Source of the DNA: an uncultured Neomegalonema sp.
GTDB lineage: Bacteria; Pseudomonadota; Alphaproteobacteria; Rhodobacterales; Rhodobacteraceae
Length of the DNA stretch: 64,000 nucleotides
Direction of reading: 5' to 3'
Assembly (NCBI GenBank): GCA_938008165.1
Contig: CALLLP010000008.1
Location: 1-64,000, forward strand
Shown: piece after piece, positions 1,415 to 16,523 of the stretch
Position numbering within the stretch: the stretch's first letter is position 1
How the letters are laid out: the number at the start of each line of letters is the position of its first letter
The notes under the pieces: generated by a model
Seen by the model: the letters and a program-made list of their open reading frames with translations, nothing else
Database searches by the model: none
Told to the model about the DNA's origin: nothing
Translations under genes and position numbers: made by a program

Positions 1415-1467
1415 CTCGCGGCACGCTACACAAGACACGCCATGAGGCAAGCGAAACCGGCGACCCT

Positions 1468-2259
1468 CTATCCCGCGACCAGCGCCTGACGCAGAAAATT
1501 CGCGCCCGCCAGCACCAGCACGACCAGAATCAGCGTTCTGAGCCGCTCGCTATCGAGCCGGTCCTGCACCTTTTGCCCAAGGCGCATTCCGATCCCGACA
1601 GGCACCAGCATCAGGGCGGAAACCGCCACCGTCTGCGGGTTGAGCACCCCCGTCATGACATGCCCCGCAATGAACGGAAACGACCCGAGCAAGAACGTGA
1701 TCGCACAGGTTCGGATGAACCGCTTCTTCGGAATATCGAGCGATAGCAACAGCATGAGGATCGGCACCCCCCATGCACCCGAAATCCCCCCGAAAAAGCC
1801 GCCCAGCACCCCCGCGACGATATCCGCCGCCGGGCGGGGCGGCGAGGTGGGGCGCCATCCGAAAAGCTGGGCGATGGAAAAGACGCTCAGGCCCAGCCCC
1901 ATGATCATCGAAAATTCCCGAGTATCGAGATGGGGCAGCAATTGCGTCGCCGCGAACAACGTCACCAGCATCACCCCGATCAGGATACGGAACTCCTGAA
2001 ACGTATGCCATGCGGCGGCCAGCCCCTCCCGCGCGCCCTGCCAGATATTCATGACCACGCTTGGCAAGGCCAGATAGGCCACGGCGACCTCCGGCGGCAG
2101 AACGGTCGCCCCGATGGCAACAGCGATGGTCGGCAGGGCAAACCCGATACTGCCCTTGACGCATCCGCCCAGAAAGAACCCGGCGGTCGCGATGGCCATC
2201 GGCACGACACCATATTGCGCAATCGATGCGCCGGGCGCAGCCATCAGCAGATCGATCAT
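1468..2259 (-). CDS. TSUP (TauE/SafE) family membrane permease
   Basis: 263 residues, strongly hydrophobic, with roughly eight predicted membrane segments arranged as two repeats. GFFLGGCVKGSIGFALPTIA near the N terminus and GGFFGGISGAWGVPILMLLL in the second half are the duplicated glycine-rich family motifs. TSUP proteins export or import sulfite, sulfonates or other small organosulfur or carboxylate anions in the inner membrane. The ATG at 2259 overlaps the rsmB stop codon (ATGA), so the gene is probably translationally coupled to rsmB. The substrate is not inferable. Confidence 0.85.
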   Translation of the reverse strand: MIDLLMAAPGASIAQYGVVPMAIATAGFFLGGCVKGSIGFALPTIAVAIGATVLPPEVAVAYLALPSVVMNIWQGAREGLAAAWHTFQEFRILIGVMLVTLFAATQLLPHLDTREFSMIMGLGLSVFSIAQLFGWRPTSPPRPAADIVAGVLGGFFGGISGAWGVPILMLLLSLDIPKKRFIRTCAITFLLGSFPFIAGHVMTGVLNPQTVAVSALMLVPVGIGMRLGQKVQDRLDSERLRTLILVVLVLAGANFLRQALVAG

Positions 2260-3545
2260 GCCCGGATGAGGCGCGCGGCATAGAAACCGTCCAGACCGCC
2301 GATATCGGGCCAATGGCAGGGCAGCGTCCGCAATGCCCCCTCGGAGATCATTTCCGGATCGATCCCCTGTCCGGGCGCTATCGGGTCAAGGCGGGCTTCG
2401 GGATGCGTGGCAAGGAAAGCCGCAATCCGATTCTCGCCCTCCTCTGGCAACAGCGAGCAGGTCACGTAGACCATCGCGCCACCGGGAGCGAGCCAGTCCC
2501 ACGCCTTGCCCATCAACGCATCCTGCAACGGTGTCAGGGCCGAGAGAACCGCCCCCGATTTCAGGTGCGGGAGATCGGGATGCCGCCGAATGGTGCCCGT
2601 GGCCGAACAGGGCGCATCCAGCAAGATCGCATCGAAATCGCCCTCCGGTTGCCAATCCAGCGCATCGGCGATGACGACCTTCACGCTGGTTCGGGTCCGC
2701 AGCAGGTTTTCGCGCATCCGGCGCATGCGCGGGTTCGAGATGTCGAGGGCGGTGACCTCGGCCCCCATGGCCGCGAGCTGCATGGTCTTGCCACCGGGCG
2801 CGGCGCACAGGTCAAGAACGCGCTTTCCCTTGATGTCGCCAAGCAGGCGGGCGGGCAAGGTCGCGGCGGCATCCTGCACCCACCATGCGCCCTCGTCATA
2901 GCCCTCCAGCGCCTGCACCGCGCCCCCGTCCAGACGCACGGTCCCGGCGGGGGTCAGCGCGCCGCCCAGGCGCTCGGCCCAGCTTTGCCCATCCTTGGCG
3001 GGCATCACGTCGAGCCGCGCCCCATGGCGATGGGCGGCGGCGATGGCGCGGGCGGTCGGCTCGCCATAGGCGGATTTCAGCCGCTCCCACAGCCATGCCG
3101 GGGTATCGACCGCCTCCGCATCAATCGCGTCGAACATCTGACATCCCTCATGCGACAGACGGCGACAAACGGCATTGACCATCCCCGATAGACGCCGCGT
3201 CTCAGGCAGGCGCTTGGCAAGACGCACGGCGGTATCGACCGCCGCATGGGGCGCGCCGTCAAGGGCCATCAACTCGGCTCCCGCGATCCGCATAATCTGC
3301 ACCCCAAGGCGATTCTTGCCCACGGGGCGCTTGGCGACGAAGCGGTCGATCACCGCATCGATCGATCCCAGACGGCGCAGGGTCGTCAGCACCAGAAGCC
3401 GCGCGAATCCTGCATCGCGCTCCTTCAGCCGGTCAATTTTCGCCTCGCGCCATGCGGCATCGAGAGAACGATCCTTCTCCAGCACCGCGTCGAGGGCAAG
3501 CAGGGCCGCATGACGGGCATCGAGACCCGGTGCCCCTACCGCCAT
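2256..3545 (-). CDS. rsmB: 16S rRNA (cytosine-C5) methyltransferase, RsmB/Sun family
   Basis: 429 residues with an N-terminal NusB-like RNA-binding domain (about 1-140) and a C-terminal SAM-dependent methyltransferase. Visible motifs are the SAM loop DLCAAPGGKTMQLA, the DAPCSATGTIRRHPD motif with one catalytic cysteine and YVTCSLLPEEGENR with the second. The family makes m5C967 in 16S rRNA. It follows htpX with a 10-nt overlap and overlaps the TSUP gene by 4 nt. rsmB next to htpX and a DUF1674 gene is a common arrangement in Rhodobacterales. Confidence 0.93.
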   Translation of the reverse strand: MAVGAPGLDARHAALLALDAVLEKDRSLDAAWREAKIDRLKERDAGFARLLVLTTLRRLGSIDAVIDRFVAKRPVGKNRLGVQIMRIAGAELMALDGAPHAAVDTAVRLAKRLPETRRLSGMVNAVCRRLSHEGCQMFDAIDAEAVDTPAWLWERLKSAYGEPTARAIAAAHRHGARLDVMPAKDGQSWAERLGGALTPAGTVRLDGGAVQALEGYDEGAWWVQDAAATLPARLLGDIKGKRVLDLCAAPGGKTMQLAAMGAEVTALDISNPRMRRMRENLLRTRTSVKVVIADALDWQPEGDFDAILLDAPCSATGTIRRHPDLPHLKSGAVLSALTPLQDALMGKAWDWLAPGGAMVYVTCSLLPEEGENRIAAFLATHPEARLDPIAPGQGIDPEMISEGALRTLPCHWPDIGGLDGFYAARLIRA

Positions 3546-4483
3546 GGGGAGGGACGCCGGGCGCCATCGGCATGGCTTTCACCGCGTCGTCTGCCCCAGG
3601 GGGATCGGCGCTGCATCGGTTGAATCATCGGCAAGGTCATGACTTTCTGTCCCATCTCGCGCGCCAGTTCCTGCAATTCCGCCACCCGGTTACGAATATC
3701 CGGATGGGTGGAAAACAGCGAATCGGTGCCGCGCACGGTAAGAGGGTTATGGATAAACAGATGCGCCGTCGTGGGAAAACGCTCGGCGGTGACAAGCATG
3801 GTGTTGGGATTGGAAATCTTGATCAAAGCGCTGGCCAGCCACATCGGGTTCTGACAGATCTGTGCGCCCAGCCGGTCGGCGGCGTATTCGCGGGTTCGGC
3901 TGATAGTCATCTGGATCACCATCGCCGCCATCGGCGCGAGCACCGCCATCAAAATCGTGCCCAGCGCCCCCATGGGCCGATCCCGTCCGCCCCCGAAGAA
4001 CAATCCGAACTGCGCGATCATCGAAATGGCCCCGGCGACCGTGGCCGAGACGGTCATAATGAGGGTATCGCGGTTCTTGATATGCGCCATTTCATGCGCA
4101 ATCACCCCGGCCAGCTCCTCGCGGCTCAGCAATTGAACGATCCCGGTTGTCATCGCCACGGCGGAATTTTCGGGGCTGCGGCCCGTGGCAAAGGCGTTCG
4201 GCTGATCCTTATCGATCAGATAGATCGCTGGAACGGGAATCTCTGCATTGCGCGACAGATGCTCGACCATCTGCATCAGTTCCGGGGCCTCGCGCGGGCC
4301 AAGGGGGCGGGCCTTGTGCATTTTCAGCACCATCTGATCCGATTTCCACCATGCCAGCAGATTCGTCACGGCGGCGAAGACCAAGGCCAGAACCGTCCCC
4401 TGCGGCCCGCCAATCGAGTATCCGACCACCATCAGGAGGGCCGTCATGGCGGCCAGTAATAACAGTGTCTTGAACGTATTCAC
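3536..4483 (-). CDS. htpX: membrane zinc metalloprotease HtpX
   Basis: 315 residues with two N-terminal membrane segments (TLLLLAAMTALLMVVGYSIG and TVLALVFAAVTNLLAWW), the zinc motif HEMAH followed by IKNRDT, two further central hydrophobic segments, and the third zinc-ligand region REYAADRLGA. HtpX degrades misfolded inner-membrane proteins. The open frame extends to 5005, but a GTG at 4483 sits 4 nt downstream of a perfect AGGAGG (4488-4493) and gives the family N terminus (VNTFKT), so the longer frame is rejected. The tail after residue 290 is rich in R/S/P and not conserved-looking. Confidence 0.93.
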   Translation of the reverse strand: MNTFKTLLLLAAMTALLMVVGYSIGGPQGTVLALVFAAVTNLLAWWKSDQMVLKMHKARPLGPREAPELMQMVEHLSRNAEIPVPAIYLIDKDQPNAFATGRSPENSAVAMTTGIVQLLSREELAGVIAHEMAHIKNRDTLIMTVSATVAGAISMIAQFGLFFGGGRDRPMGALGTILMAVLAPMAAMVIQMTISRTREYAADRLGAQICQNPMWLASALIKISNPNTMLVTAERFPTTAHLFIHNPLTVRGTDSLFSTHPDIRNRVAELQELAREMGQKVMTLPMIQPMQRRSPWGRRRGESHADGARRPSPWR

Positions 4484-4569
4484 GCGGCCTCCTGCGGTCA
4501 TCGCCTTTTTTCCGACTTCCGGAAACTCTATATGGCTCTGTAACCTGACAATGCGAGAGAGGGGTACGG

Positions 4570-4743
4570 ATGACCAGCAAGAGACCCGACCCGGAGATCG
4601 CCGCCCGCGCGCTCGCCGAGGCGCAGGCGAGAAAAGACGAGGCCAAAGCGCTCGACTTGCCCCCTGAACAGGGCGGGCCGAAAGGTCGTGAGCCGGTGCG
4701 CTACGGCGATTGGGAAAAGGATGGAATAGCCTATGATTTCTAG
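4570..4743 (+). CDS. SdhAF4 / DUF1674 family small protein
   Basis: A 57-residue protein starting MTSKRPDPEIAARALAEA and ending in the diagnostic tail GPKGREPVRYGDWEKDGIAY-DF. This C-terminal motif defines the DUF1674 family, bacterial relatives of the eukaryotic succinate dehydrogenase assembly factor 4, which protects flavinylated SdhA. It is transcribed divergently from htpX across an 86-nt gap, and its last 11 nt overlap the msrA start. The assembly role is known for eukaryotic homologues and inferred here. Confidence 0.88.
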   Translation: MTSKRPDPEIAARALAEAQARKDEAKALDLPPEQGGPKGREPVRYGDWEKDGIAYDF

Positions 4744-5386
4744 AAAAACTCTCGCCGCGTTCGGCATCGCCGGTGCTTTGGCCACCGCTTCCGCATCGGC
4801 GGCGGATTTCGCGCCTCTGCCCGAAGTGGCAGAAGGTCAGAAAGTGGCGATCTTCGCCGGGGGGTGCTTCTGGTGCATCGAATCCGATTTCGACAAGGTG
4901 CCGGGCGTCGTCGCGACGACATCGGGCTATACGGGCGGTAAGACCGAACGGCCCAGCTATCGTCAGGTCGGGTCCGAAACGACGGGTCATTACGAGGCGC
5001 TGCATGTCGTCTACGATCCCGATACCGTCAGTTATGACGAGTTACTGACCGCGTTTTGGCATTCGGTCGATGTGACGGATGACGGCGGCCAATTCTGCGA
5101 CCGGGGCGATTCATACCGCACGGCGGTCTTTGCCGTGGATGACGAACAGCGCGAGGCGGCGGAAACCTCGAAACAGGCCATCATCGCATCGGGCGTGCTA
5201 AAAGATCCGCTGGTCACGCCCATTCTCGACGCCGCACCCTTTTATCCGGCGGAGAGCTATCACCAGAACTACTACAAGACCAACGCGATCCGTTACACGA
5301 TCTATCGCGGCAATTGCGGCCGTGATCGCATTGTCAAGAAGGTCTGGGGCGATCTGGCCTATAAGGGAATCCCGAAAGGGCATTGA
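4733..5386 (+). CDS. msrA: peptide-methionine (S)-S-oxide reductase, exported form
   Basis: 217 residues. A Sec-type signal peptide (RKTLAAFGIAGALATASASA, about residues 4-23) precedes a complete MsrA domain with the catalytic GGCFWC motif near residue 48, followed by ESYHQNYY and a C-terminal NCGRD with a possible resolving cysteine. It reduces methionine-S-sulfoxide in oxidised proteins. The signal peptide places it in the periplasm, whereas many MsrA proteins are cytoplasmic. It overlaps the upstream DUF1674 gene and ends 47 nt from the convergent dapB. Confidence 0.93.
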   Translation: MISRKTLAAFGIAGALATASASAADFAPLPEVAEGQKVAIFAGGCFWCIESDFDKVPGVVATTSGYTGGKTERPSYRQVGSETTGHYEALHVVYDPDTVSYDELLTAFWHSVDVTDDGGQFCDRGDSYRTAVFAVDDEQREAAETSKQAIIASGVLKDPLVTPILDAAPFYPAESYHQNYYKTNAIRYTIYRGNCGRDRIVKKVWGDLAYKGIPKGH

Positions 5387-5404
5387 GATCGCTTGATTTT
5401 TCCT

Positions 5405-5425
5405 GCTCCGGATCGCATCCGGAGC
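5405..5425. terminator. perfect hairpin between convergent msrA and dapB
   Basis: GCTCCGGAT, loop CGC, ATCCGGAGC: a perfect 9-bp GC-rich stem exactly between the two convergent stop codons. Neither side has a good T tract, so it is a possible bidirectional terminator or mRNA 3'-end stabiliser rather than a textbook Rho-independent terminator. Confidence 0.5.
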
Positions 5426-5433
5426 GGGGCCTC

Positions 5434-6252
5434 CTAATCCCCAAGCCCCAGCACATCGATCATCGCATATTCGCCATTCTTGCGGCCCCGGCCCCAGAAT
5501 GCCGCTTTGAGCGCCCCGCGTGAGAAGATGCGGCGGTCGGTGGCGAGGTGGCGCAGGACGATGCGTTCTCCATCGGCGGCAAAGATCACGTCATGCTCGC
5601 CCACGACATCCCCGCCCCGGATCGCGTGAAAGCCGATGTCGCCCCTCTGCCTCGCGCCGGTGATGCCATCCCGCCCCCGATCAGACACCTCCTCCAGCGC
5701 CACGCCCCGCCCATCGGCGGCGGCCTCGCCCAGCATCAGCGCGGTGCCAGAGGGTGCATCGACCTTGCGGTTGTGATGCGCCTCGACGATTTCGATATCG
5801 AAATCGGCGTCCAGAGCGCGGGCGACCTTTTCCGTCAGGATCGTCAGCAGGTTCACCCCCAGTGACATATTCCCCGCCCGCACGAGGACGGCATGGCGGG
5901 CGGCGGCGTTGAGCTTGGCGAGGTGGTCCGGCCCAAACCCGGTCGTACCGATCACATGAACCAGCTTCGCCTGTGCCGCCAACGCCGCATGGGCGACCGT
6001 GACATCGGGGGCGGTAAAATCGATCATCGCATGGGCACCGAGAACCGCCTCCAGCGGATCGCTGCCGACCACGACATCCAGCATGCGCCCCAGCCCCATC
6101 GCCGCGCCGATATCCTGCCCGATCCAAGGGTGGCCGGGCCGCTCGGTCACCGCATGAAGCACCGCCCCCTCGGTATCGAGCACCTCTTGCACGAGCATCT
6201 GACCCATCCGGCCCGAACAGCCGGGAATGACGATGTTAAGGGGGTCGGTCAT
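5434..6252 (-). CDS. dapB: 4-hydroxy-tetrahydrodipicolinate reductase
   Basis: 272 residues matching the full DapB length. The NAD(P)-binding loop is [15 protein letters not shown] near the N terminus. The catalytic and substrate motif [17 protein letters not shown] is intact, as is the C-terminal GALKAAFW. The enzyme makes tetrahydrodipicolinate in lysine and diaminopimelate biosynthesis. AAAGGACG lies upstream of the ATG. The gene stands alone, convergent with msrA. Confidence 0.95.
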
Positions 6253-6394
6253 CGGGGTCGTCCTTTATGCTTACCGTTACACCTGATCCGTTCGCCCATC
6301 CGATACACCGCAATGCCCGCGTCGTCACGCAGGGAGCTTGTATGCACTCAAAAAGGGCATTAAACAAAATCACCAACTTTTAGGAAATTCACCC

Positions 6395-6646
6395 ATGCGA
6401 TTCGCTCTTTGCCTTTTCTGCGCGCTATCGATCTTCACCGCGCCGGTTCACGCCCATGAATTTTACTGCAAGGACTTTCCGACCTATGCCGATGCGGTAC
6501 GGCACTGCAAGACATCGGCGCAGCATTCTTGGCCGGATAAGTGCGGAAGTCATGACCGGGACAAGGATGGCCGCCCCTGCGAATGCCGACCCGGCGGACC
6601 GGAAACCGACACGCAAGCCTGCAAATCGAAACGCAAAAAGAAATAA
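6395..6646 (+). CDS. small secreted Excalibur-type calcium-binding protein
   Basis: 83 residues. A signal peptide (MRFALCLFCALSIFTAPVHA) is followed by YCKDFPTYADAVRHCK and DRDKDGRPCECRPGG. The CxDF...A...DxDxDGxxCE pattern is the Excalibur domain, which binds calcium through the Asp cluster with flanking disulfide cysteines. It ends in the basic tail KSKRKKK. The start at 6395 is preferred over 6338 because it gives the signal peptide and has TAGGA about 11 nt upstream. Likely periplasmic or extracellular; partner unknown. Three flanking genes further right belong to an exosortase-like locus. Confidence 0.82.
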   Translation: MRFALCLFCALSIFTAPVHAHEFYCKDFPTYADAVRHCKTSAQHSWPDKCGSHDRDKDGRPCECRPGGPETDTQACKSKRKKK

Positions 6647-6801
6647 AGCCGTCTCCGGCCCGCTATCCCTCATTCAAGGGGGGCCGGTGATGGCTATGCC
6701 ATGCCAAAAAAGTCAATTGACACATTTTATACCCCCCTCTTACCGTAAACACAGATGAAAGAACTTTAAGCACGTGGCACGAGAGCGGCCTCAGGGGGGT
6801 T

Positions 6802-7620
6802 ATGCTTTTATACTTCCTCGCAATTGTTTTGATATGCATTGCAATCGAATATTGTGCCGATCCGGTGATCCCGCGCGCCAAGGGAACGCGAAAGCGGCGA
6901 TGGCCGACGAATATCGCCCTCTACGTCATCAATACCGGGCTGTCCGCCGCCCTGCCCCTGTCGTTTCTCGCCGTGGCCCATTACGCCGATGAAAACGGGA
7001 TTGGCCTGCTCAACTGGCTGAATCCGCCCTATGGGATAGACGCCATGGCGACGGTCCTGATCGGCAGTCTGTCGATCTATATCTTTCATCGACTGCACCA
7101 TTCGGTGCCGATACTTTGGCGGTTTCACCGCGTCCATCACAGCGATAACGATCTCGACTGGTCGAGCACCCTGCGTCACCATCCCGGCGAGACCTTTTTC
7201 ATGATCCTGCTGCAAAGCGCCACCGTCTTCGCCTTCGGGCTAGACGCGACCGCGCTGTTTGCGCTGCTCATCCTGCATATCGGCATCGATTTTTTCACGC
7301 ATTCACGCTTCATGCTGCCGCCCCGGATCGAGCGAAGCCTGCAATGGGTGATGATCACCCCCCAATTGCACCACATCCACCATTCGAGCTGGCAGCCGGA
7401 GACAGACAGCAATTACGGCATCGATTTTTCTATCTGGGATCGGCTGTTCGGCACACTGAATCGTCAACCGCTGCGCTCGATGGACAGTTTTGCCTATGGC
7501 ATCGATACGGTCGATCCGGCGGTTTCGAACGATCTGGACTGGCTGCTGACCTCGCCGCTGGTGCCCGATAGCACCGATTGGGCCGAAACGCCGGAACATG
7601 CCAGAACCTATCGCCCCTGA
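6802..7620 (+). CDS. sterol desaturase / fatty acid hydroxylase superfamily membrane protein
   Basis: 272 residues with several membrane segments and the histidine clusters of the diiron hydroxylase family: HRLHH (96-100), HRVHH (109-113), RHH (125-127) and HHIHH (190-194). These ligate two irons for O2-dependent hydroxylation or desaturation of lipids in the inner membrane. About 70 nt separate it from the tiny sorting-tail gene downstream, so co-expression with the exosortase-like locus is plausible but not proven. The lipid substrate is unknown. Confidence 0.85.
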   Translation: MLLYFLAIVLICIAIEYCADPVIPRAKGTRKRRWPTNIALYVINTGLSAALPLSFLAVAHYADENGIGLLNWLNPPYGIDAMATVLIGSLSIYIFHRLHHSVPILWRFHRVHHSDNDLDWSSTLRHHPGETFFMILLQSATVFAFGLDATALFALLILHIGIDFFTHSRFMLPPRIERSLQWVMITPQLHHIHHSSWQPETDSNYGIDFSIWDRLFGTLNRQPLRSMDSFAYGIDTVDPAVSNDLDWLLTSPLVPDSTDWAETPEHARTYRP

Positions 7621-7691
7621 GATTTCTGACCCATCACGCTTGGCACAAACACTCTCTTTATCCACAGCCAACACAACCAAAGGAGATAACC

Positions 7692-7874
7692 ATGAAAACC
7701 ACCGCTCTGATCGCCGCCTTCTCCATGGCCGCTACGGCCACCGCCATGGCAGGAGCGGCTGTAGCAGCACCCGTACCTGGCCCAAGCCTTGGCTTGGCTG
7801 GCCCATGGGGCCTGGTCCTCGCGGCGGCGGGCTATGGCGGATACAGGCTCTATCGCAGCCGGAAGAACCGATAA
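7692..7874 (+). CDS. tiny exported protein with PEP-CTERM-like C-terminal tail, copy 1
   Basis: 60 residues. An N-terminal signal peptide (MKTTALIAAFSMAATATAMA then GAAVAA) runs almost directly into PVPGPSLGLAGPWG, a hydrophobic stretch LVLAAAGYGGY and a basic end RLYRSRKNR. A Pro-rich motif, a transmembrane helix and an Arg cluster form the tripartite layout of exosortase substrates. There is essentially no mature domain between the two signals. A strong RBS (AAAGGAG) precedes the ATG. The last 70 nt are nearly identical to copy 2 at 8008, and an exosortase-like gene follows. The substrate assignment is inferred. Confidence 0.75.
   Translation: MKTTALIAAFSMAATATAMAGAAVAAPVPGPSLGLAGPWGLVLAAAGYGGYRLYRSRKNR
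7801..7870 (+). repeat. direct repeat encoding the sorting tail, unit 1
   Basis: This 70-nt stretch matches 8111-8180 at 64 of 70 positions by my count. Both encode GPWG plus the hydrophobic and Arg-rich tail. Most differences are silent, which suggests recent duplication or gene conversion with selection on the protein tail. Confidence 0.9.
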
Positions 7875-8007
7875 GCCATGACTGCACGTCATACCCGGCG
7901 CCAGTCGGGCGGTGCGGGGATGCGCTTCTGGACTGTTGACCTCGCCACAAGTTCGCGATAGCGCGGATGAAGCAGGTATTTTCCGTTATACATCAAAAGG
8001 CTTGTTC

Positions 8008-8184
8008 ATGAATCGTCTCTTTCTGGTGGCCCTCTTTTCCATGACCTATGCTCCCGCAGCCATCGCAGGCATCCGCCCGCTTCCCGTCCCCGCCCCCCTT
8101 CTAGGATTCGGCCCATGGGGTCTGGTCCTCGCGGCGGCGGGCTATGGCGGATATAGGCTCTATCGCAACCGCAAAAATCGGTGA
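8008..8184 (+). CDS. tiny exported protein with PEP-CTERM-like C-terminal tail, copy 2
   Basis: 58 residues. The signal peptide MNRLFLVALFSMTYAPAAIA is followed by only about ten residues (GIRPLPVPAPLLGF) before GPWG, the hydrophobic LVLAAAGYGGY and RLYRNRKNR. The layout equals that of copy 1 at 7692, with a PVPAP motif in place of PVPGP. The N-terminal halves of the two copies differ, so only the tail is conserved. The stop codon overlaps the GTG start of the exosortase-like gene (GTGA), so the two are translationally coupled, which strongly ties the tail to that enzyme. Confidence 0.78.
   Translation: MNRLFLVALFSMTYAPAAIAGIRPLPVPAPLLGFGPWGLVLAAAGYGGYRLYRNRKNR
8111..8180 (+). repeat. direct repeat encoding the sorting tail, unit 2
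   Basis: Second unit of the 70-nt duplicated tail, about 310 nt downstream of the first (7801-7870). It lies inside the copy 2 gene and ends just before the exosortase-like start codon. Confidence 0.9.
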
Positions 8185-9047
8185 AACGGATCAGCATGGC
8201 CCAAAACCGTGCACAGGCCGCGCTTTTTTCGGCGGTCGACCGGCGCGAGGCATGGCTCTGGATATTGGCCATGTTCGTCGCCTCCTGCGTCGCGCTACAG
8301 GCGCCTGACAATACTATGGCGGGCCTTTTGCGGGCCTTTGGTGAGCATAACCTCGTCTATTGGCTATGCTACGCCGTTATCGCGCAATGCATTTCAAGCA
8401 GCGCGAGCGAACCGCTCGACGGTCTGTCTCTCGCCGCGCTGGTCGGGGGCGCGGCGGCATTGGGCGGGATCAGCCTTTTGAGCATGCCCGTACTCGACGG
8501 ATTGATCGCGACGGGCCTTGGGCTGTTGCTATACCGCGCATATGGAAACGATCCGCGCCTCAGAGGGGCCGCGATCGTCTTTATCGCCCTTGCGGTGAAT
8601 ATCTTCTGGGCCAAGGCGGTTTTCGCGATCTTCAAGGAACCCATCGTCGTCCTCGACACGCGCTTTACCGAGGTGATGCTGCGCCTCTCCGGCTATGAAG
8701 TCGAGCGGACGGTCAATACGCTCACGGCGGGCAACGGGTTCTATATCACGATTATCGGGGCTTGCTCGGCCTTCAATAACCTGTCGCTTGCCGTTCTCGC
8801 CACCATTGCCGCCCTGATCGGCGTGCGGGGGCATTTACAGCGCCGCGATCTTGGCGGGATTGCGCTGGTCTGCCTCGTTCTGATGATCTTCAACAGCCTG
8901 CGACTATCCGTATTCGCTTCCAGCCGGGGGGCCTATGAATACTGGCATGAGGGCGCAGGGATACCGATATTGGCCGTGATGCAAACAGCGGTGACTCTGG
9001 CGGCGGTCGCGTTTGTGGTGTTCAGGTCGCGGCCCAAACTGGCATGA
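8181..9047 (+). CDS. exosortase-like transpeptidase (archaeosortase/exosortase superfamily)
   Basis: 288 residues from the GTG at 8181 (an ATG at 8196 is also possible), largely hydrophobic with about eight predicted membrane segments. The three family catalytic residues are present in order and spacing: Cys195 in GACSAFNN, Arg241 in FNSLRLSVFA and His256 in YEYWHEGAG. Exosortases cleave C-terminal sorting signals of exported proteins at the periplasmic face and are thought to transfer them to another acceptor. It is coupled by 4-nt overlaps to the tiny tail protein upstream and the accessory gene downstream. The subfamily is not recognised. Confidence 0.85.
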   Translation: MKRISMAQNRAQAALFSAVDRREAWLWILAMFVASCVALQAPDNTMAGLLRAFGEHNLVYWLCYAVIAQCISSSASEPLDGLSLAALVGGAAALGGISLLSMPVLDGLIATGLGLLLYRAYGNDPRLRGAAIVFIALAVNIFWAKAVFAIFKEPIVVLDTRFTEVMLRLSGYEVERTVNTLTAGNGFYITIIGACSAFNNLSLAVLATIAALIGVRGHLQRRDLGGIALVCLVLMIFNSLRLSVFASSRGAYEYWHEGAGIPILAVMQTAVTLAAVAFVVFRSRPKLA

Positions 9048-9529
9048 TGTGGCTGCGCCTCTCGACGATCGGAATCATCGCCCTTCTGGTGACGGTACGG
9101 CTGGGCGCTGCCGGAGACTATCGGCATGACGTGCTGAAAGGGGCGCATGATACGCTGGTCGAGGCGGGGCTTGAAATCCTGCCCTCCACGCGGATGTGGG
9201 ATGAGAATTACGGGGCCGTACGCGTTCGTCCCCCCGATTGCGACCATGATGTCGCGGTTATGCCTTTTCCCATCATGATCGATACCGCCGCCATGCGCCA
9301 AGCCATCAAGGTCGACGAAGAAGCAGGGCGCATCATCTATTTTGATACGCAATGGGATACGCAGGTCAAAACGGGGCTGTTCCTCTCGCTCATTCGCCAA
9401 AGAATGCGGCACGCGCTGGGAACCTCCGATCTCTATCCCTCAGGCAATGCCTTGCTGTTGTCAGGATCGGCGGAATGCCTTGCAACCTTTCCTGTCGATA
9501 TGGCCGCTGCATGGCGAATCCGCTCCTGA
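9044..9529 (+). CDS. exosortase-locus accessory protein of unknown function
   Basis: 161 residues. An N-terminal membrane anchor or signal (RLSTIGIIALLVTVRLGAAG) precedes a soluble domain with WDENYGAVRVRPPDCDHDVAV and FDTQWDTQVKTGLFLSLIRQR. The ATG overlaps the exosortase-like stop (ATGA). Size, anchor and position resemble the EpsI-type (DUF3485) accessory proteins that accompany exosortases, but I see no decisive shared motif, so this is only an analogy. It is the last gene of the unit, followed by a dispersed repeat and purC. Confidence 0.65.
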   Translation: MMWLRLSTIGIIALLVTVRLGAAGDYRHDVLKGAHDTLVEAGLEILPSTRMWDENYGAVRVRPPDCDHDVAVMPFPIMIDTAAMRQAIKVDEEAGRIIYFDTQWDTQVKTGLFLSLIRQRMRHALGTSDLYPSGNALLLSGSAECLATFPVDMAAAWRIRS

Positions 9530-9628
9530 ACGGGCAAACTGCTTGCGGCGCATCGGGCAAGTTTCTATACACGCGCGCAGGATACGAAAGGCGGTCATCG
9601 CCCTTCGGGGGGCATCTAGAGGGGTCGG

Positions 9629-9711
9629 CGATCAGGGTGAGCCAAAGAGTGTCAGGAAATGCGCATGTCTTGGCGCAATTCCTGATCCGACTTGGTCGCC
9701 GGTCGCTCTAG
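9629..9711. repeat. dispersed intergenic repeat, copy A
   Basis: Shares an about 83-nt imperfect match with 50885-50967 (same orientation), and a core of about 45 nt with the reverse complement of 25916-25976. In this copy CAGGAAATGCGC (9653-9664) and GCGCAATTCCTG (9673-9684) form a 12-bp stem with one mismatch and an 8-nt loop. The unit ends 27 nt before purC. Confidence 0.8.
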
Positions 9712-9738
9712 CGCCAGTTTTGAATCGGAGTACAGGCG

Positions 9739-10503
9739 ATGAGCCGTCGACGGTTGGTCTATGAAGGCAAGGCAAAGACGATCTATGCCGGGCCGGAGCC
9801 GGGCACGCTCGTCCAGCATTTCAAGGATGACGCGACCGCTTTCAACGCCGAGAAACATGCGATTATCGAGGGAAAGGGTGTCCTCAATAATTTCATTTCC
9901 GAGTTCATGATGACCCATCTGAACAGCGTTGGCGTACCCACGCATTTCATTCGCCGCATCAATATGCGGGAACAGTTGATCCGCGAGGTCGAGATCATCC
10001 CGCTAGAGGTGGTGGTCCGCAATGTGGCCGCAGGATCATTGGCCAAGCGCCTCGGGATTGACGAAGGCACGCCCCTGCCCCGTCCGATCGTGGAATATTA
10101 CTACAAGGACGACAAGCTCGGCGATCCGATGGTGGCGGAGGAGCATATCGCCGCCTTCAACTGGGCCAGCCCGCAGGATCTGGACGATATGGTTGCGCTG
10201 GCCCTGCGTGTGAACGACTTCATGAGCGGGTTGTTCCTTGGGGTCGGGATCAAGCTGGTCGATTTCAAGATCGAATGCGGCCATATCTATGACGGTGATA
10301 TCCCCCGCGTTATCATCGCCGATGAAATCAGCCCCGATTCGTGCCGTCTGTGGGATGTGAAGACCGGCCAGAAATTCGATAAGGATGTCTTCCGGCGCGA
10401 TCTTGGCAACCTGATGGATGGCTACACCGAAATCGCCACACGACTGGGCGTGATGCCCGAAAAAAGCGTGGTGCGGGGCACCGGCCCCAAATTGGTCCAT
10501 TAA
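9739..10503 (+). CDS. purC: phosphoribosylaminoimidazole-succinocarboxamide synthase
   Basis: 254 residues, the usual SAICAR synthetase length. Visible family blocks are [11 protein letters not shown] at the N terminus, [40 protein letters not shown] and [15 protein letters not shown]. It joins CAIR and aspartate with ATP in purine biosynthesis. It heads the run purC-purS-purQ with small gaps, and a dispersed repeat occupies the upstream region. Confidence 0.96.
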
Positions 10504-10514
10504 GGGAGAATGCC

Positions 10515-10754
10515 ATGAAAGCGCGTGTTTTCGTGACCCTGAAATCCGGTGTTCTCGATCCGCAGGGCGCAGCCATCGGCGCGGCGCTGGGCGGCATGGG
10601 CTTTGACGGGGTGAACAGCGTCCGTCAGGGCAAGGTGTTCGAGATCGACATGACCGATACGGATCGCCCGGAGGCCGAAGCGCGGCTCGACGCGATGTGT
10701 AAGCGCCTGCTCGCGAATACCGTGATCGAAGATTATTCGATCGATTTAAGCTAA
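10515..10754 (+). CDS. purS: phosphoribosylformylglycinamidine synthase subunit PurS
   Basis: 79 residues beginning [20 protein letters not shown], the hallmark of PurS, and ending [12 protein letters not shown]. PurS is the small scaffold subunit that bridges PurQ (glutaminase) and PurL (synthase) in the three-component FGAM synthase. It lies 11 nt after purC and 56 nt before purQ. purL is not in the window, so it is encoded elsewhere. Confidence 0.95.
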
Positions 10755-10810
10755 CGACTTGTAAGAAAACGGCCAGTCATGGGCCCGTTTGCGATGCCAG
10801 CGAGGACGCA

Positions 10811-11482
10811 ATGAAATCCGCCGTAATCGTTTTTCCCGGTTCCAATTGCGATCGCGATATGGCCGTGGCTCTGCACGAGGCGACCGGGGCCGCGCCCGCG
10901 ATGGTATGGCACAAGGACAGCCAATTGCCGGAGGGGCTGGACCTGATCGCCGTACCCGGCGGGTTTTCATTCGGGGATTATCTGCGCTGCGGGGCGATTG
11001 CGGCCCAATCGCCCATCATGCGCGAGGTGGCGGATTTTGCGGGCAAGGGCGGGCATGTGCTTGGGGTCTGCAACGGTTTTCAGGTCCTGATCGAAACGGG
11101 GCTTCTGCCCGGTGTGCTGATGCGCAATGCAACGCTGAAATTCGTCTGTCGCGACGTGCCCCTGCGGGTCGAGGAGGCGCAAAGCGCCTTCACGCGCGGG
11201 TATATGTCAGGGCAGGAGATCGTCCTGCCGGTCGCCCATCATGACGGCTGCTATGTCGCCGATGACGAGACGCTGACCCAATTGGAAGACGAGCAACGGG
11301 TCGCGTTCCGCTATCGCGATGCGGTGAATGGCTCGATGAACGATATTGCGGGCATCCTGTCGCAGAATCGCCGGGTGCTGGGCATGATGCCACATCCTGA
11401 GCGGGCGGTGGATGCGCGGGTATTGGGCACCGACGGCACGCCGATGTTTCGCGCATTATCCGAGATGATGGTGGCCGCGTGA
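10811..11482 (+). CDS. purQ: phosphoribosylformylglycinamidine synthase glutaminase subunit
   Basis: 223 residues forming a class I glutamine amidotransferase. [17 protein letters not shown] gives the oxyanion-side strand, [13 protein letters not shown] carries the nucleophilic cysteine, and [10 protein letters not shown] carries the catalytic histidine. It releases ammonia from glutamine for the FGAM synthase reaction with PurS and PurL. Its stop overlaps the GTG of the following lipoprotein gene. Confidence 0.96.
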
Positions 11483-11892
11483 AAATGATGATCGCCCTTG
11501 TGGTCTGCGCCACCCTCACCGCCTGTGCTACCGCGCCCCAACCGACACGGACGGTGCCCCCTGCCCCGCCCAGTATTGCCTTTACGCCCGTTGCCTTGGG
11601 CGATCTAGAGGGTCGCGAGGGGCTGATTTTTCCCGATATCACCGTGCAGACGGCCTATGCTGGTGTCGAGGGCTATGTGGCCCAATGCCTCGGCGGGCGG
11701 GGCCTCACCCGGCAGGCAGAGCCGCATGGCTTTTCGCTGATCGATCCCGCGGGGAGCGCGCCGTTTTTGCGTGTCGTCATCGCCACGGTCAGCGCATCGA
11801 GCGCATTGGGCCTTGATGGAACCGGCCTGACCCCTGCCATGAAAGAAGCGATAGCGGATACCGTACAGGGACGCCCTCGCTGCGCATCATGA
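11479..11892 (+). CDS. small lipoprotein of unknown function
   Basis: 137 residues. A lipoprotein signal peptide with lipobox LTAC ([13 protein letters not shown]) means the mature chain starts at Cys16 and is probably outer-membrane anchored. The rest has no motif I recognise; a [20 protein letters not shown] segment is followed by [16 protein letters not shown]. The start codon GTG overlaps the purQ stop, and its stop overlaps the dusA start. Coupling on both sides shows it is a real gene even though its function is not known. Confidence 0.7.
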
Positions 11893-12890
11893 CCGCCGCG
11901 ACCCGTGCCGCGCGGTTCTCCGTCGCGCCGATGATGGACTGGACCGACCGCCATTGCCGGTATTTCCACCGATTGCTGACCCGTCATGCGCTGCTCTATA
12001 CCGAGATGGTGACGGCCCCGGCGGTCATCCATGGCGATCGCGCTCGGCTGCTGGGGTTTTCGCCCGAAGAACACCCCGTCGCCCTGCAACTGGGCGGGTC
12101 CGACCCCCTGCAACTGGCCGAAGCGGTTCGGATTGCCTGTGATTTTGGATATGACGAGATCAATCTGAATGTCGGGTGCCCGTCTGACCGGGTGCAGAAC
12201 GGCGCATTCGGGGCCTGTCTGATGCGCGAACCGGGGTTGGTCGCGGAATGCGTCTCCGCGATGATGGCGGCGTCCGAAGCCGCAGGCGGTCCGGCAATCA
12301 CCGTAAAATGCCGCATTGGCGTCGATGAGCAGGAGCCGCCCGTCGCCCTGCGCGACTTTTTGCGCGTGGTCTCGGCGGCGGGGGTTTCGCGCTTTTCGGT
12401 CCATGCGCGCAAGGCGTGGCTGCAAGGTTTGTCGCCCAAGGAAAACCGCACGATCCCCCCCCTCGACTACGATCTGGTGCGGATGATGCGCAGCGAAAAT
12501 CCGGGCTTGCACCTGTCGCTCAATGGCGGGATCGATACGCTGGACGCGGCGACGGCACATCTGGATGACGGATTCGCCGGGGTGATGATCGGGCGCGCGG
12601 CCTATCAAAACCCGTGGGATATGCTCTCAGGTGTCGATGAGCGCGTCTTTGGCGCCGCCCCGCGCGACACCGATGCCCGCGCCGTGGTGGCGGCAATGGC
12701 CGAGTATGCGGGCCGGGTGGACGCGCCCGTCAAGAGCATCGGGCGGCATATGCTGGGCCTCTTTACCGGCAAACCGGGCGCAAAGATCTGGCGACGGTAT
12801 CTGTCGGAGCATATGTATCTACCCGATGCCGGTCCCCATACCCTGCTCGATGCGATGCAGGCGATGGAGCATCGCCCCGCCTATGCCTGA
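11889..12890 (+). CDS. dusA: tRNA-dihydrouridine synthase, DusA type
   Basis: 333 residues, a flavin TIM-barrel. FSVAPMMDWTDRHCRYFHRL is the N-terminal DusA signature, LNVGCPSDRVQNGAFGACLM carries the catalytic cysteine, SVHARKAWLQGLSPKENR is typical of DusA rather than DusB, and SLNGGI and VMIGRAAYQNPW are the phosphate-binding strands. DusA reduces U20/20a in tRNA with NADPH and FMN. ATGA overlap with the lipoprotein gene and an 8-nt overlap with the next gene indicate one operon. Confidence 0.93.
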   Translation: MTAATRAARFSVAPMMDWTDRHCRYFHRLLTRHALLYTEMVTAPAVIHGDRARLLGFSPEEHPVALQLGGSDPLQLAEAVRIACDFGYDEINLNVGCPSDRVQNGAFGACLMREPGLVAECVSAMMAASEAAGGPAITVKCRIGVDEQEPPVALRDFLRVVSAAGVSRFSVHARKAWLQGLSPKENRTIPPLDYDLVRMMRSENPGLHLSLNGGIDTLDAATAHLDDGFAGVMIGRAAYQNPWDMLSGVDERVFGAAPRDTDARAVVAAMAEYAGRVDAPVKSIGRHMLGLFTGKPGAKIWRRYLSEHMYLPDAGPHTLLDAMQAMEHRPAYA

Positions 12891-13677
12891 CCCGCTGCAC
12901 CAATACCGCGAGGATGGCTGGACCGTCTTTCCCCCCGATCCGGCGGTGGCGGCATGGGCCGGGGCCTGCGCATCCGTGGCCCGCGAGATGCTGGTAGATC
13001 CCGCGCTCGCGCAGGGGTATCGCTGCGATGGCACATGGTTCGCGGGGGTCAATGCGCTGGAAAACGATGCAACCGGGGCCGTGCCGGGGCGCGTGCCACC
13101 GCTATCGGGAGCGGCGGTGGCGTTTGTGCGCGGGGCGCTGGGCCATGGGGATGTGTCATGGGATCGCGCGCAGGTCTCGGTCGTCTTTCCCGGCTATCCA
13201 CGCCATGGGGCTGAGGATACGGAAGCCAGTTTCCGCTATCGCCACACCCGCTGCGCCGCCCATGTCGACGGGCTGGAGCGGTCGATGCCGGACCGGCGGC
13301 GCAGATTGTCGGAAACACACAGCTTTTTACTGGGCATCCCACTGGGGGAGGCAGGCGAAGACGAAGGGGCCTTTGTCGTCTGGCGCGGTTCTCACGAAAT
13401 CATGCGCGCGGCCTTTGCCGAAGCTTATGCAGGCCATGATCCGGCGGATTGGTTCGGGATCGATATTACGGACCCCTATGTCGCGGCCCGCAAGCGGTGC
13501 TTTGAGGTCTGTGAGCCGGTGCGGATCGCGCCGGGGATGGGGGCGGCCTATGTCATGCATCCGTTGGCCCTGCATGGGGTAGCGCCATGGGAGGGGGCAG
13601 GGATGACCCCACGCATGGTCGCCTATTTCCGCCCCGATGCCTTTGCAGGCGACCCGGCGCGGTGGATTACCGCCTGA
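12883..13677 (+). CDS. phytanoyl-CoA dioxygenase-like Fe(II)/2-oxoglutarate oxygenase
   Basis: 264 residues. AAHVDGLERSMPDRRR supplies the first His and Asp of the facial triad; MHPLALHGVAPWEGAG with a following MTPRMVAYFR supplies the distal His and the 2-oxoglutarate-binding Arg. The spacing fits the phytanoyl-CoA dioxygenase superfamily. A DETHSFLLGIPL-like core strand is seen as SETHSFLLGIPLGEAGEDEG. Substrate unknown. The start at 12883 overlaps dusA by 8 nt, and the last 11 nt overlap the end of the convergent protease gene. Confidence 0.75.
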   Translation: MPDPLHQYREDGWTVFPPDPAVAAWAGACASVAREMLVDPALAQGYRCDGTWFAGVNALENDATGAVPGRVPPLSGAAVAFVRGALGHGDVSWDRAQVSVVFPGYPRHGAEDTEASFRYRHTRCAAHVDGLERSMPDRRRRLSETHSFLLGIPLGEAGEDEGAFVVWRGSHEIMRAAFAEAYAGHDPADWFGIDITDPYVAARKRCFEVCEPVRIAPGMGAAYVMHPLALHGVAPWEGAGMTPRMVAYFRPDAFAGDPARWITA

Positions 13678-14338
13678 GCGTCAGCGTATTTCCACTCACA
13701 TCGAATCCACTGAGCCGATTGAGAAAACTCATCCCCAAAAGCGGCTGTGACAACCGTCCCCGCTCCAGAACCAGCGCTTCGACATTGCGCAGGGCGATAT
13801 CGCCCACCTCCATCCGGTCGATGCGGATCGGGGCGGCGACGGCCACGCCATTCGCCGTACCGACCTGCACGATGAAGGACAGATCCGACGGCGTGTAGCC
13901 CAAGTTAGTTGCAACCTCAAGGGGCAAAACGACGCTCGATGCACCCGTATCGAGCAAAAAGGTCACCGGATCGCCATTGACCATCACACGGGTCGCGAAA
14001 TGGCCGTCGATATTCCGGCGCAGGGTCACAGTGCCATCCCCCTCGCTCTGGGGTACGGTCGGCAGCAACTCGCCCTTGATGCGCAGATATGCGGTATTCA
14101 GATCGTCGCGGAAGCTATAGGCATAGATCAGCGCGATCAGCAGGGCGAACCAGATGGCGAGATACTTGACCGTCTTGCCAAATGAGGTCGAGCGCCCGAC
14201 GCCGAACAAGACAAGCGCCAGAAACGCAAGCATGTAAAGCGCCTGCAACAGCTTATCCGTATCGCCAAGGATGGCGGGGTCGATCGTGTCGCAACCGCTG
14301 AGAATCAGCGGGAGGGCAAGCCAGCGCCAGCGCATCAT
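13667..14338 (-). CDS. membrane-anchored retropepsin-like aspartic protease
   Basis: 223 residues. The N terminus has a possible lipobox (LILSGC) and two hydrophobic segments (LYMLAFLALVLFGVG and YLAIWFALLIALIYAY). The C-terminal half is a clan AA protease domain with the active-site motif FLLDTGASSVVLP and the later hydrophobic strand LLGMSFLNRL, as in the TIGR02281 family of bacterial single-lobe aspartic proteases. It probably acts as a dimer at the membrane. The start overlaps the DUF1289 stop (ATGA). The 3' end overlaps the convergent dioxygenase gene by 11 nt. Confidence 0.85.
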   Translation of the reverse strand: MMRWRWLALPLILSGCDTIDPAILGDTDKLLQALYMLAFLALVLFGVGRSTSFGKTVKYLAIWFALLIALIYAYSFRDDLNTAYLRIKGELLPTVPQSEGDGTVTLRRNIDGHFATRVMVNGDPVTFLLDTGASSVVLPLEVATNLGYTPSDLSFIVQVGTANGVAVAAPIRIDRMEVGDIALRNVEALVLERGRLSQPLLGMSFLNRLSGFDVSGNTLTLRR

Positions 14339-14580
14339 TCGCCCCTGAGCCGAGCCGCCCGGCCACCCCGACGCGGCGGTCTGGCCGCTTCCACCCGCGA
14401 GGCACGGGCGGGCAACTCATCCATCACACTACGCCGCTCCTCAGGCGCAAGGCGGGACCATGAGGCGATTTCGGCTCCGCTGCGATAGCATCCCATGCAC
14501 AGGCGCTCGGTCGGATGCAGGACGCAAACGCGCACACAGGGCGACTCGATTTCGTCGCGCCGCCAGACAGGATCGGTCAT
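14335..14580 (-). CDS. DUF1289 family small cysteine protein
   Basis: 81 residues. [31 protein letters not shown] has the four-cysteine pattern CxxxC...CxxC typical of DUF1289, a probable metal-binding fold of unknown role. An Arg-rich tail follows. It is sandwiched by 4-nt overlaps between dxs (upstream) and the aspartic protease (downstream). Confidence 0.88.
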
Positions 14581-16523
14581 GCCAGCATCGCGCGCCGGAC
14601 CGCCGCAATCTCCGCTTTGTCGGTGCCCAGCGCTTCCAGTGCGGCGGCGGCGATGGCGCTCGAATCCAGACCGGCCTCACGGTACATCGCCGCCGGGCTG
14701 TCCTGATCGATGAAGGTATCGGGCAGGCGCAGGCTGCGCACTTTCAGCCCCGCATCCAGCGCCCCAGCATCGGCCAACAGCGTCAGAACATGACTGCCAA
14801 AGCCCCCGATGGCCCCCTCCTCGACAATGACCAGCGCTTCGTGATTGCGGGCAAGGCGCAGAACAAGATCGATGTCGATGGGCTTGGCAAACCGCGCATC
14901 CGCCACGGTCGTGGGCAGGCCGCGCGCGTCCAGCTCCTCCGCCGCGAGGATCGCTTCGCCCAGCCGTCCGCCCAAGGACAGGATGGCGACCTTGCTGCCC
15001 TCGCGCATGATGCGGCCCTTGCCGATCTCCAGCGCTTCGCCGCGCTCTGGCATATCGACGCCCATCCCCTCGCCGCGCGGATAGCGAAAGGCGCTGGGGC
15101 GGTCGTCGAGTTCAAGCGCGGTACGCACCATATGTTTCAACTCCGCCTCATCCCCGGCGGCCATGCATACAAAGCCCGGCAACGCCGCAAGATAGCCGAT
15201 GTCAAAGCTGCCCGCATGGGTCGGCCCATCGGCCCCCACCAGCCCCGCCCGGTCAATGGCAAAGCGCACGGGCAGTCGCTGGATCGCGACGTCATGGACG
15301 ATCTGGTCATATCCGCGTTGCAGGAACGTCGAATAGATGGCGCAGAACGGTTTCATCCCCGCAGCGGCCAGCGCAGCGGCAAAGGTGACGGCGTGCTGCT
15401 CGGCGATGCCCACATCGAAGGTGCGCTCCGGGAAGGCCTCGCCATAAAGATCAAGGCCCGTGCCGGACGGCATGGCGGCGGTCACGGCGACGACACCCTT
15501 GTCTTCCTGCGCTTCTTGCATCAGGGCTTCGGCAAAGACCTTGGTATAGCTGGGCGCATTGGATTTCGCCTTGGACTGCTTGCCGGTCACCACATCGAAT
15601 TTCGAAACGCCGTGATATTTGTCGGCGCTCGTCTCGGCGGGGGCATAGCCCTTGCCCTTCTGGGTGACGCAATGGATCAGCACCGGCCCGTCATGGCGGT
15701 CGCGCACATTGCGCAGGACCGGCAGCAGGTGGTCCATGTTATGCCCGTCGATCGGGCCGATATAGTAAAAGCCCAGCTCCTCGAACAAGGTGCCGCCGAC
15801 AGCCATCCCCTTGGTGTATTCCTCCACCTTCGCCGCGCGCTTGCGGATGCCCTCCGGAAAGATGCTGGTAACCTGTTTCATCAGGTCGCGGAAAGTTTTG
15901 TAGGTGCCCCCCGACCACAGTTTCGCGAGATAGGCGCTCATCGCGCCCACGGGCGGGGCGATGGACATCTCGTTGTCGTTGAGAATGACGATCAGGCGCG
16001 ATTTCAACCCGCCCGCATTGTTCATCGCCTCATAGGCCATGCCCGCACTCATGGAGCCGTCGCCGATAACGGCGATCACATTTTCCTTCGCCCCCTTCAG
16101 CTTGGCGGCGGTTGCAAAACCAACCCCGGCGGAAATGGAGGTCGAGGAATGGGCCGCGCCGAAGGGGTCGTAGAGGCTTTCGGCCCGCTTCGTGAACCCG
16201 GCCAGTCCTCCGCCCTGACGCAGCGTGCGGATGCGGTCGCGCCGCCCGGTCAGGATCTTGTGCGGATAGCATTGATGCCCGACATCCCAGATCAGCTTGT
16301 CGATGGGCGTGGCAAAGACCGAATGGATCGCGACGGTCAGCTCGACCACCCCAAGGCTGGCCCCCAGATGCCCCCCGGTCACGGAAACGGCGGAGACCGT
16401 CTCGGCGCGCAATTCATCGGCGAGGCTGCGCAATTGCTTATCGGTCAGCTTCTTGAGATCGGCGGGCGATGAAACCGTATCGAGCAACGGGGTCTCGGGT
16501 CTCGGGGCAGCTTGGTCCGTCAC
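14577..16523 (-). CDS. dxs: 1-deoxy-D-xylulose-5-phosphate synthase
   Basis: 648 residues, full length. The thiamine diphosphate motif begins [20 protein letters not shown], with an upstream HSSTS segment. The transketolase-like middle has [15 protein letters not shown] and [16 protein letters not shown]. It condenses pyruvate and glyceraldehyde-3-phosphate to start the MEP isoprenoid pathway. Its neighbour ispA uses the pathway products. The gap to ispA is about 105 nt, with no clear terminator. Confidence 0.96.

Follow-up and report, generated by a model that had tools for sequence, protein, structure and literature searches.

The 64,000-nucleotide stretch analysed here (the window) comes from contig CALLLP010000008.1 of an uncultured Neomegalonema sp., whose 3.1 Mb assembly has a completeness of 85%. 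On its plus strand it carries, in this order, genes for a hydroxylase of the PF04116 family, two tiny proteins (T1 and T2), an exosortase-like enzyme and a small accessory protein (Table 1). An earlier note on this DNA had described the last four as a minimal exosortase-like system whose substrates lack a mature domain, and both tiny open reading frames (ORFs), the enzyme and the accessory gene are found where it placed them. Each apparent substrate runs from a signal peptide through a brief stretch rich in Gly and Pro to the tail, close to the note's description of a signal peptide joined to a sorting tail. The word 'minimal' is not quite apt: because the hydroxylase gene at 6802-7620 belongs to the cassette as a regular fourth part, the unit begins upstream of 7692.

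Table 1. Parts of the cassette in the window
Feature	Position	Strand	Remarks
PF04116 hydroxylase, cassette-type paralogue	6802..7620	+	PF04116 94.5 bits (cut-off 31); weak OlsE match
Tiny gene T1, 60 residues: signal peptide, GAAVAAPVPGP, SLGLAGPWG, hydrophobic/Arg tail	7692..7874	+	
T1 predicted cargo, signal-peptidase site to last PxP, 11 residues, Gly first	7752..7784	+	by rule and alignment only, with the A-M-A site placed by hand
T1 spacer and tail: SLGLAGPWG then LVLAAAGYGGYRLYRSRKNR	7785..7871	+	
Tiny gene T2, 58 residues: signal peptide, GIRPLPVPAP, LLGFGPWG, hydrophobic/Arg tail	8008..8184	+	
T2 predicted cargo, to last PxP, 10 residues, Gly first	8068..8097	+	
T2 spacer and tail	8098..8181	+	
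Exosortase-like enzyme, 288 residues from GTG (or ATG at 8196), Cys195/Arg241/His256	8181..9047	+	
Accessory protein, 161 residues, one N-terminal helix and a domain with two family-conserved Cys	9044..9529	+	

The enzyme gene is flanked in the same way, by the tiny gene or genes immediately before it and the accessory gene immediately after it, at nine loci in alphaproteobacteria, the window and eight others. Enzyme searches led to genomes G002, G009, G011 and G167 (the contig of the last ends inside the accessory gene), and Pseudooceanicola (L015), Sulfitobacter sp. CW3 (L018) and Roseovarius (L019) came from a scan of named genomes. Three relatives are of the same genus, recorded as uncultured Neomegalonema; loci L014, L016 and L017 coincide with those of G002, G009 and G011. 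The window enzyme is a divergent query, which alone gave no matches in the protein search of named genomes, while an alignment headed by a more central member gave six loci, three of them new. The remaining genome, G716, was found by the tail profile alone, and its locus (L077) holds a tiny gene, enzyme, accessory and hydroxylase; since it was absent from that profile, it amounts to an out-of-sample test. Two tiny genes with GPWG are present only in the window and in Roseovarius, the other seven loci having a single one, with GPVG, GPIG or GPLG in those other than L077. The four-nucleotide overlap between T2 and the enzyme, pointed out previously, exists in the window if the GTG start is used but is not conserved, the gap being 10-37 nucleotides at the seven other loci measured.

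T1 and T2 are built alike: beyond the signal peptide, 10-11 residues lead to the last PxP, a brief spacer then closes with GPWG, and the last 20 residues form the hydrophobic/Arg end, with PVPGP as the Pro motif of T1 and PVPAP as that of T2. Comparing the 24 sense codons of the two tails shows 17 without any difference, 6 with a synonymous one and a single residue change (the stop codon also differs), a pattern that suggests constraint at the protein level. This mostly synonymous divergence, together with the same gene order in eight further loci, argues that the tiny ORFs are more than chance. Both starts are preceded by ribosome-site-like sequences, AAAGGAG for T1 and AAAGG for T2.

Across the nine loci there are 11 tiny proteins of 55-60 residues, all with a cleavable-looking signal peptide and a Pro-rich motif before a hydrophobic segment, which is the layout of a sorting substrate. 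A/V-x-A/S precedes the predicted mature start; 7-11 residues then lead to the last PxP and 16-20 to GPxG, after which the tail runs for 18-21 residues. Ten aligned members share eight invariant residues; GPxG and the Tyr/Arg portion are well conserved. In nine of the ten, the alignment column that follows the predicted signal-peptidase site holds Gly (10 of 11 counting L077). This site was set by rule and alignment, the script accepting only G or T behind it; in T1 an A-V-A slightly further on could serve instead. The L018 row in the comparison starts at a non-start codon, an ATG lying upstream, and its predicted mature part begins G-I-P-V-P-L-P. The cargo segment contains neither Cys nor Ser in 10 of the 11 proteins, and its motif is similar across genera and not strongly diversified. 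A freed peptide of roughly 10 residues, as first proposed, would fit a cut at the last PxP (11 residues for T1, 10 for T2); a cut at GPxG would give 20 and 18. At the two loci with two copies (7812-7871 and 8122-8181 in the window; L019:5558-5934), the aligned tails appear by eye closer within a locus than between loci and the cargo differs, as though homogenisation, or selection for a match to the enzyme of the locus, had acted on the tails.

The tail could be assigned to no named CTERM class, as had been suspected: in NCBIfam (release 20.0, June 2026), T1 and T2 fall below every cut-off and give weak matches only. PID_CTERM and PFE_CTERM are the only CTERM models to match them at E up to 10 (best, PID_CTERM with 16.6 of 26 bits), and each matches two of ten tails at E up to 1.

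Do the tail and the enzyme occur together, as the search proposed in the earlier note would require of a substrate and its enzyme? In the 14 genomes of the window's own genus, the tail (E below 1e-20) and the enzyme are both present in G000 (the window's genome), G002, G009 and G011, and neither is present in the other ten. The genus of Sulfitobacter sp. CW3 gives the same picture, with both in G692 and G716 and neither in the 60 other genomes out of 62. Label shuffling, which ignores relatedness, yields 1 in 1001 for the former and 1 in 1891 for the latter. Strong tails were limited to G000 and G167 in a family sample of 394 genomes, and enzymes with E below 1e-80 occurred in the same two; two weaker enzymes, in G154 and G402 (E 1e-15 to 1e-18), belong to a separate branch with another small partner and are not counted among the nine. 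Within a class sample of 289 genomes, the tail was found at E up to 1e-4 only in G000, which also had the only strong enzyme, next to six distant ones. Enzymes were counted with the window enzyme as a single query in the own genus and with the enzyme profile in the family. First-look candidates were all scored in the own-genus and carrier tail searches, and, but for a few in one genome, all in the genus of Sulfitobacter sp. CW3; in the family and class samples the best 16 or 22 per genome were scored for the tail and the best 6 or 8 for the enzyme. Strong tail and strong enzyme matches were thus never found apart in these samples, and no enzyme-free genome gave the strong tail match that would have spoken against a pairing.

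Seven carrier assemblies (the own-genus genomes G000, G002, G009 and G011, and the assemblies with L015, L018 and L019) were also searched whole with the tail profile; no larger protein with the tail was found, non-tiny matches being no better than E 0.005. A weak tail-spanning match in the L015 genome (E 0.06) was taken as chance, as the overlying 233-residue frame reads like a sugar transferase. The family sample contains seven further tail matches at E 0.001-0.01, of which we looked at the best. This is an exported-looking protein of 233 residues in G238 (L035:943-1644; E 0.0013) with a VPLPA-like sorting tail, and it implies that tails of this general kind do exist on larger bodies; the window-type enzyme was not found in the genome of G238.

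Turning to the enzyme, the Cys195, Arg241 and His256 reported previously are confirmed, and they are invariant, in the same columns, in alignments of five, seven and eight enzymes. An AlphaFold model (mean predicted local distance difference test score 82, predicted template modelling score 0.78) consists mainly of long helices and is consistent with a multi-pass helical membrane protein; no solved relative was found by sequence or by fold in the PDB (fold threshold E 0.001). When eight members are compared with family models at E up to 0.1, TIGR03763 (cyanoexosortase A) matches five (best E 5e-7), TIGR04178 four and PF09721 two (best E 1.7e-9); the L077 enzyme matches no family model at E up to 0.01. 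Membership of the exosortase superfamily therefore rests on the invariant Cys/Arg/His, the membrane architecture and weak model matches. No described subfamily, which could have brought known large substrates with it, takes in the window enzyme above its cut-off. The same genome encodes, on another contig, a classical exosortase A with an EpsI domain (TIGR03109, 320 bits, cut-off 208).

In the enzyme tree, a single branch (98/97) separates the nine enzymes linked to tiny genes from six sister enzymes and two of a third kind. Several of the sisters appear, on reading the sequences, to lie beside glycosyltransferase-like genes. The row for the XrtA of the window's genome in this tree, comprising the first 320 residues, has a very long branch, joins no group and falls on the tiny-linked side, with L011 nearest the dividing branch; the nine enzymes are therefore best described as one side of the branch from the eight sister enzymes and not as a proven clade.

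The accessory proteins share their two conserved Cys and are homologous to those that accompany the sister enzymes (hhalign probability 97.8%, E 1e-12). We considered whether they could be EpsI and rejected this: the EpsI model matches none of eight accessories at E up to 1, and no profile similarity links them with the XrtA-EpsI protein encoded elsewhere in the window's genome. No meaningful NCBIfam match was found for the accessories, nor any PDB fold match at E 0.001.

The hydroxylase adjoins the cassette at all eight loci whose contig is long enough, upstream of the tiny genes in the window and downstream of the accessory elsewhere, and all eight exceed the PF04116 cut-off. The OlsE model of NCBIfam (equivalog cut-off 475 bits) scores 74-77 bits in three of the eight tested, 74.4 for the window. 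A core paralogue, with 34-37% identity, is also present in 12 of the 14 own-genus genomes; in a tree of the eight cassette and 12 core copies, which carries a warning of long branches, the two sets are split at 100/100. Within this tree, the window hydroxylase pairs with that of Roseovarius (95/94) and not with its own genus, just as the window enzyme does in its tree (92/93). Because both trees pair the window with Roseovarius alike, the cassette seems to have passed from lineage to lineage with its parts as a set; its gene order changed without loss of the hydroxylase. Both points argue for a shared function.

At L077 (L077:638-1860), the cassette of G716 lies about 2 kb from genes that read like phage-tail genes, and tRNA genes stand beside the cassettes of L010 (L010:6043-6119) and L015 (L015:8229-8314), so that integration hot spots may be used. 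Insertion linked to tRNA genes was rejected: scans of six further relatives revealed no tRNA gene, and in the window the closest one is over 6 kb away. One scan for a viral origin gave no relative. The search for plasmid carriage gave one distant match only, an enzyme-accessory pair annotated as hypothetical on a plasmid of Rhizobium sp. WL3 (L080:4704-6069), in an annotated polysaccharide locus. Foreign base composition was rejected, the G+C content being 0.591 for the cassette and 0.608 for the window.

What could such a cassette make? The explanation we favour, with slightly less than even confidence, is that it is a mobile, four-part cassette, patchily distributed among alphaproteobacteria, which makes a very short ribosomal peptide conjugate by handing the peptide to an amino-lipid. 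The cassette is conserved, tail and enzyme are paired, and the tail was found on no larger protein of the carriers; the export, the cleavage, the acceptor and the roles of hydroxylase and accessory are what we infer. Sec would export the tiny precursor, signal peptidase would leave a Gly-started, Pro-rich segment, and the tail would keep the precursor in the inner membrane. The Cys of the enzyme would then cut at or just after the PxP...GPxG region to form a thioester, from which a peptide of 7-11 (at most about 20) residues would pass to a lipid bearing an unblocked amino group. The hydroxylase, whose superfamily includes the ornithine-lipid hydroxylase OlsE, would make or finish the acceptor lipid, the accessory would present substrate or lipid, and a peptide-lipid in the cell envelope would result. 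That Gly is conserved where the new N-terminus is predicted hints at a role for this end too, whether exposed or acting as the nucleophile in ring closure. It is the hydroxylase, as a regular fourth part, that points to a lipid-linked product, which the earlier note had not proposed among its possibilities of signal, carrier or regulator.

OlsE hydroxylates ornithine lipid, and its homologue in a roseobacter is of unproved role (PMC11631085). The precedent for such a transfer lies with archaeosortase ArtA. In Methanosarcina, the archaeosortase gene artA adjoins the lipid genes pssA/pssD; Haloferax pssA/pssD mutants are blocked in the cleavage of an ArtA substrate, and the authors of that work put forward a speculative model in which a lipid amine attacks the enzyme thioester (PMC7157517). 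The fullest form of our proposal, an exosortase-based pathway for ribosomal lipopeptides in which an exosortase family that had no name so far, carried from genus to genus in a cassette, transfers a mostly Gly-started, Pro-rich cargo of 7-11 residues to an amino-lipid on which a dedicated hydroxylase acts, is more doubtful, although we regard it as a real possibility.

Several observations weigh against this proposal. Enzymes of the PF04116 family act on many lipids, hence a hydroxylase neighbour is no proof of a lipid acceptor. The window enzyme stays below the NCBIfam cut-offs (TIGR03763, E 4.3e-5, 23 bits of 150; TIGR04178, 17 bits of 23), and has no Pfam match up to E 10, and the enzyme profile gave no significant alignment in a direct comparison with the XrtA of the same genome. 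The site-picking script had demanded G or T, so the count of Gly-first peptides rests on the alignment column. Finally, several carrier assemblies are incomplete, the window's own included, and a further substrate could be missing.

Alternatively, the tiny proteins may be small membrane subunits or pseudo-substrate regulators of an enzyme whose real reaction takes place on a lipid or glycan. Seven of the nine loci have a single precursor, adjacent to the enzyme and co-inherited with it, the GPxG and Tyr/Arg portion is well conserved and no larger substrate was found, all of which would suit a subunit. Against it, all 11 have a cleavable-looking signal peptide and a Pro-rich motif in the layout of a sorting substrate, and the window and Roseovarius each have a pair of copies whose cargo differs; we consider this alternative unlikely, though the strongest of those envisaged.

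The enzyme might also release or cyclise the peptide as a signal or antagonist, in the way AgrB acts on AgrD, with the N-terminal Gly closing the ring. We find this quite unlikely. The length and Pro content of the cargo fit, as do Gly at +1 in 10 of 11 proteins and the patchy distribution of the cassette; against it, the cargo motif is little diversified between genera, the hydroxylase is left unexplained, and no sensor gene was noticed beside the cassettes, although there was no systematic search for one.

It is improbable that this is an ordinary exosortase acting mainly on bigger proteins encoded elsewhere, with tails that have since diverged, and that the tiny genes are minor members of the set. 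Canonical systems do have many substrates, with a median of eight PEP-CTERM proteins per genome (PMC1569441), the best weak tail match is the 233-residue VPLPA-like protein of G238, and the window's assembly is only 85% complete. With all candidates scored, however, the tiny genes stand alone at E below 0.001 in the seven carriers, including that of L019, a single-chromosome record of 4.5 Mb. That the tiny ORFs are chance or decayed frames is hardly credible: they are short and below every library cut-off, but they are conserved in nine loci, their T1/T2 tails diverge mostly synonymously and ribosome-site-like sequences precede them in the window.

The surroundings of the cassette were surveyed through a selection of neighbouring proteins, ten in the window and ten across L008, L009, L010, L015, L018, L019 and L077. 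The flanks in the window are housekeeping-like, with DapB and an M48 peptidase upstream and SAICAR synthetase downstream; the ten window neighbours (273-16469) also include RsmB/F, GATase, Dus, GNAT, TauE, an aspartyl protease and one unmatched protein. A scan of 6600-9800 revealed no promoters and nine terminator-like sites, versus 2.8 expected. Elsewhere, at L012:5293-6905 and L049:6378-8019, a sister enzyme-accessory pair is followed by a protein of 83-89 residues with a signal peptide, a Cys stretch (ANCKASF..NC or ANCNASFQSC), APIG or APFG, a hydrophobic segment and an Arg end. Present in two genera, this resembles another exosortase system with a small cargo; neither the enzyme nor the small protein has an NCBIfam match at E up to 0.01.

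The cassette is best seen as a variation on exosortase/CTERM sorting that is itself apparently undescribed: no NCBIfam model exceeds its cut-off for T1, T2, the accessories or the window enzyme, and no description was found in the titles and abstract starts of the literature searched, which does not prove absence from print. With the PEP-CTERM/exosortase system (EpsH, XrtA) it shares a membrane enzyme with Cys/Arg/His and substrates made of a signal peptide, a Pro motif, a hydrophobic segment and a basic end, and in both a small partner is encoded downstream, which in the classical system is EpsI (PMC1569441). In that classical system the enzyme gene nearly always lies among polysaccharide genes (PMC1569441). 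The cassette differs in its tail, which has PxP...GPxG in place of the PEP motif, in having one or two substrates per carrier assembly, in its hydroxylase, in an accessory not recognised as EpsI and in lacking an exopolysaccharide neighbourhood: the 20 neighbouring proteins scanned in the window and at the seven relatives' loci include no glycosyltransferase, and among them, at L015, are one NAD epimerase-family protein and BacA.

The VPLPA-CTERM tails, paired with XrtD according to the NCBIfam names, resemble those described here through the G238 protein, which by our reading of its tail has a PVPLP motif before a hydrophobic, Arg-ended segment. That protein is far larger, however, its tail lacks GPxG, and the XrtD model misses the cassette enzymes at E up to 0.1. 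Flavobacterium XrtF and its partner offer another variant exosortase with an adjacent partner gene, whose targets are not known (PMC10936215, PMC12188702). T1 and T2 are, for their part, far below the cut-offs of PID-CTERM and PFE-CTERM. XrtF is paired with PID-CTERM.

AgrB/AgrD has in common with the cassette a membrane peptidase that processes a short propeptide (PMC10196373). The cargo segments of the cassette, by contrast, are without Cys or Ser in 10 of 11 cases. AgrB also uses Cys chemistry, but its family is unrelated to the exosortases, and its thiolactone ring needs Cys or Ser. The sister pairs at L043-L048 have a related enzyme (E 3e-14 to 8e-24) and a homologous accessory. Their enzymes are nonetheless split from the tiny-linked ones at 98/97, and in the class sample the tail was confined, at E up to 1e-4, to the window's own genome. 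Several of these pairs, which are below NCBIfam cut-offs, lie beside genes that read as sugar-related.

The precedent for the proposed chemistry is archaeosortase ArtA with PssA/PssD, where a sorting-enzyme gene also stands beside lipid-synthesis genes and the cut end is lipid-anchored (PMC7157517). ArtA acts on S-layer and other protein substrates and with archaeal lipids, whereas the cassette has a hydroxylase and a cargo of peptide size. In the literature consulted, no acceptor of a bacterial exosortase is named; the 2025 CrtB paper offers a working model and describes the targets of XrtF as not yet known (PMC12188702). The lipid-type enzyme in the cassette suggests a specific acceptor hypothesis, and with so short a cargo, mass spectrometry could reveal the product, its cut site and its acceptor together in a single molecule. 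If the peptide-lipid proposal is true, exosortases would join the makers of short ribosomal peptides.

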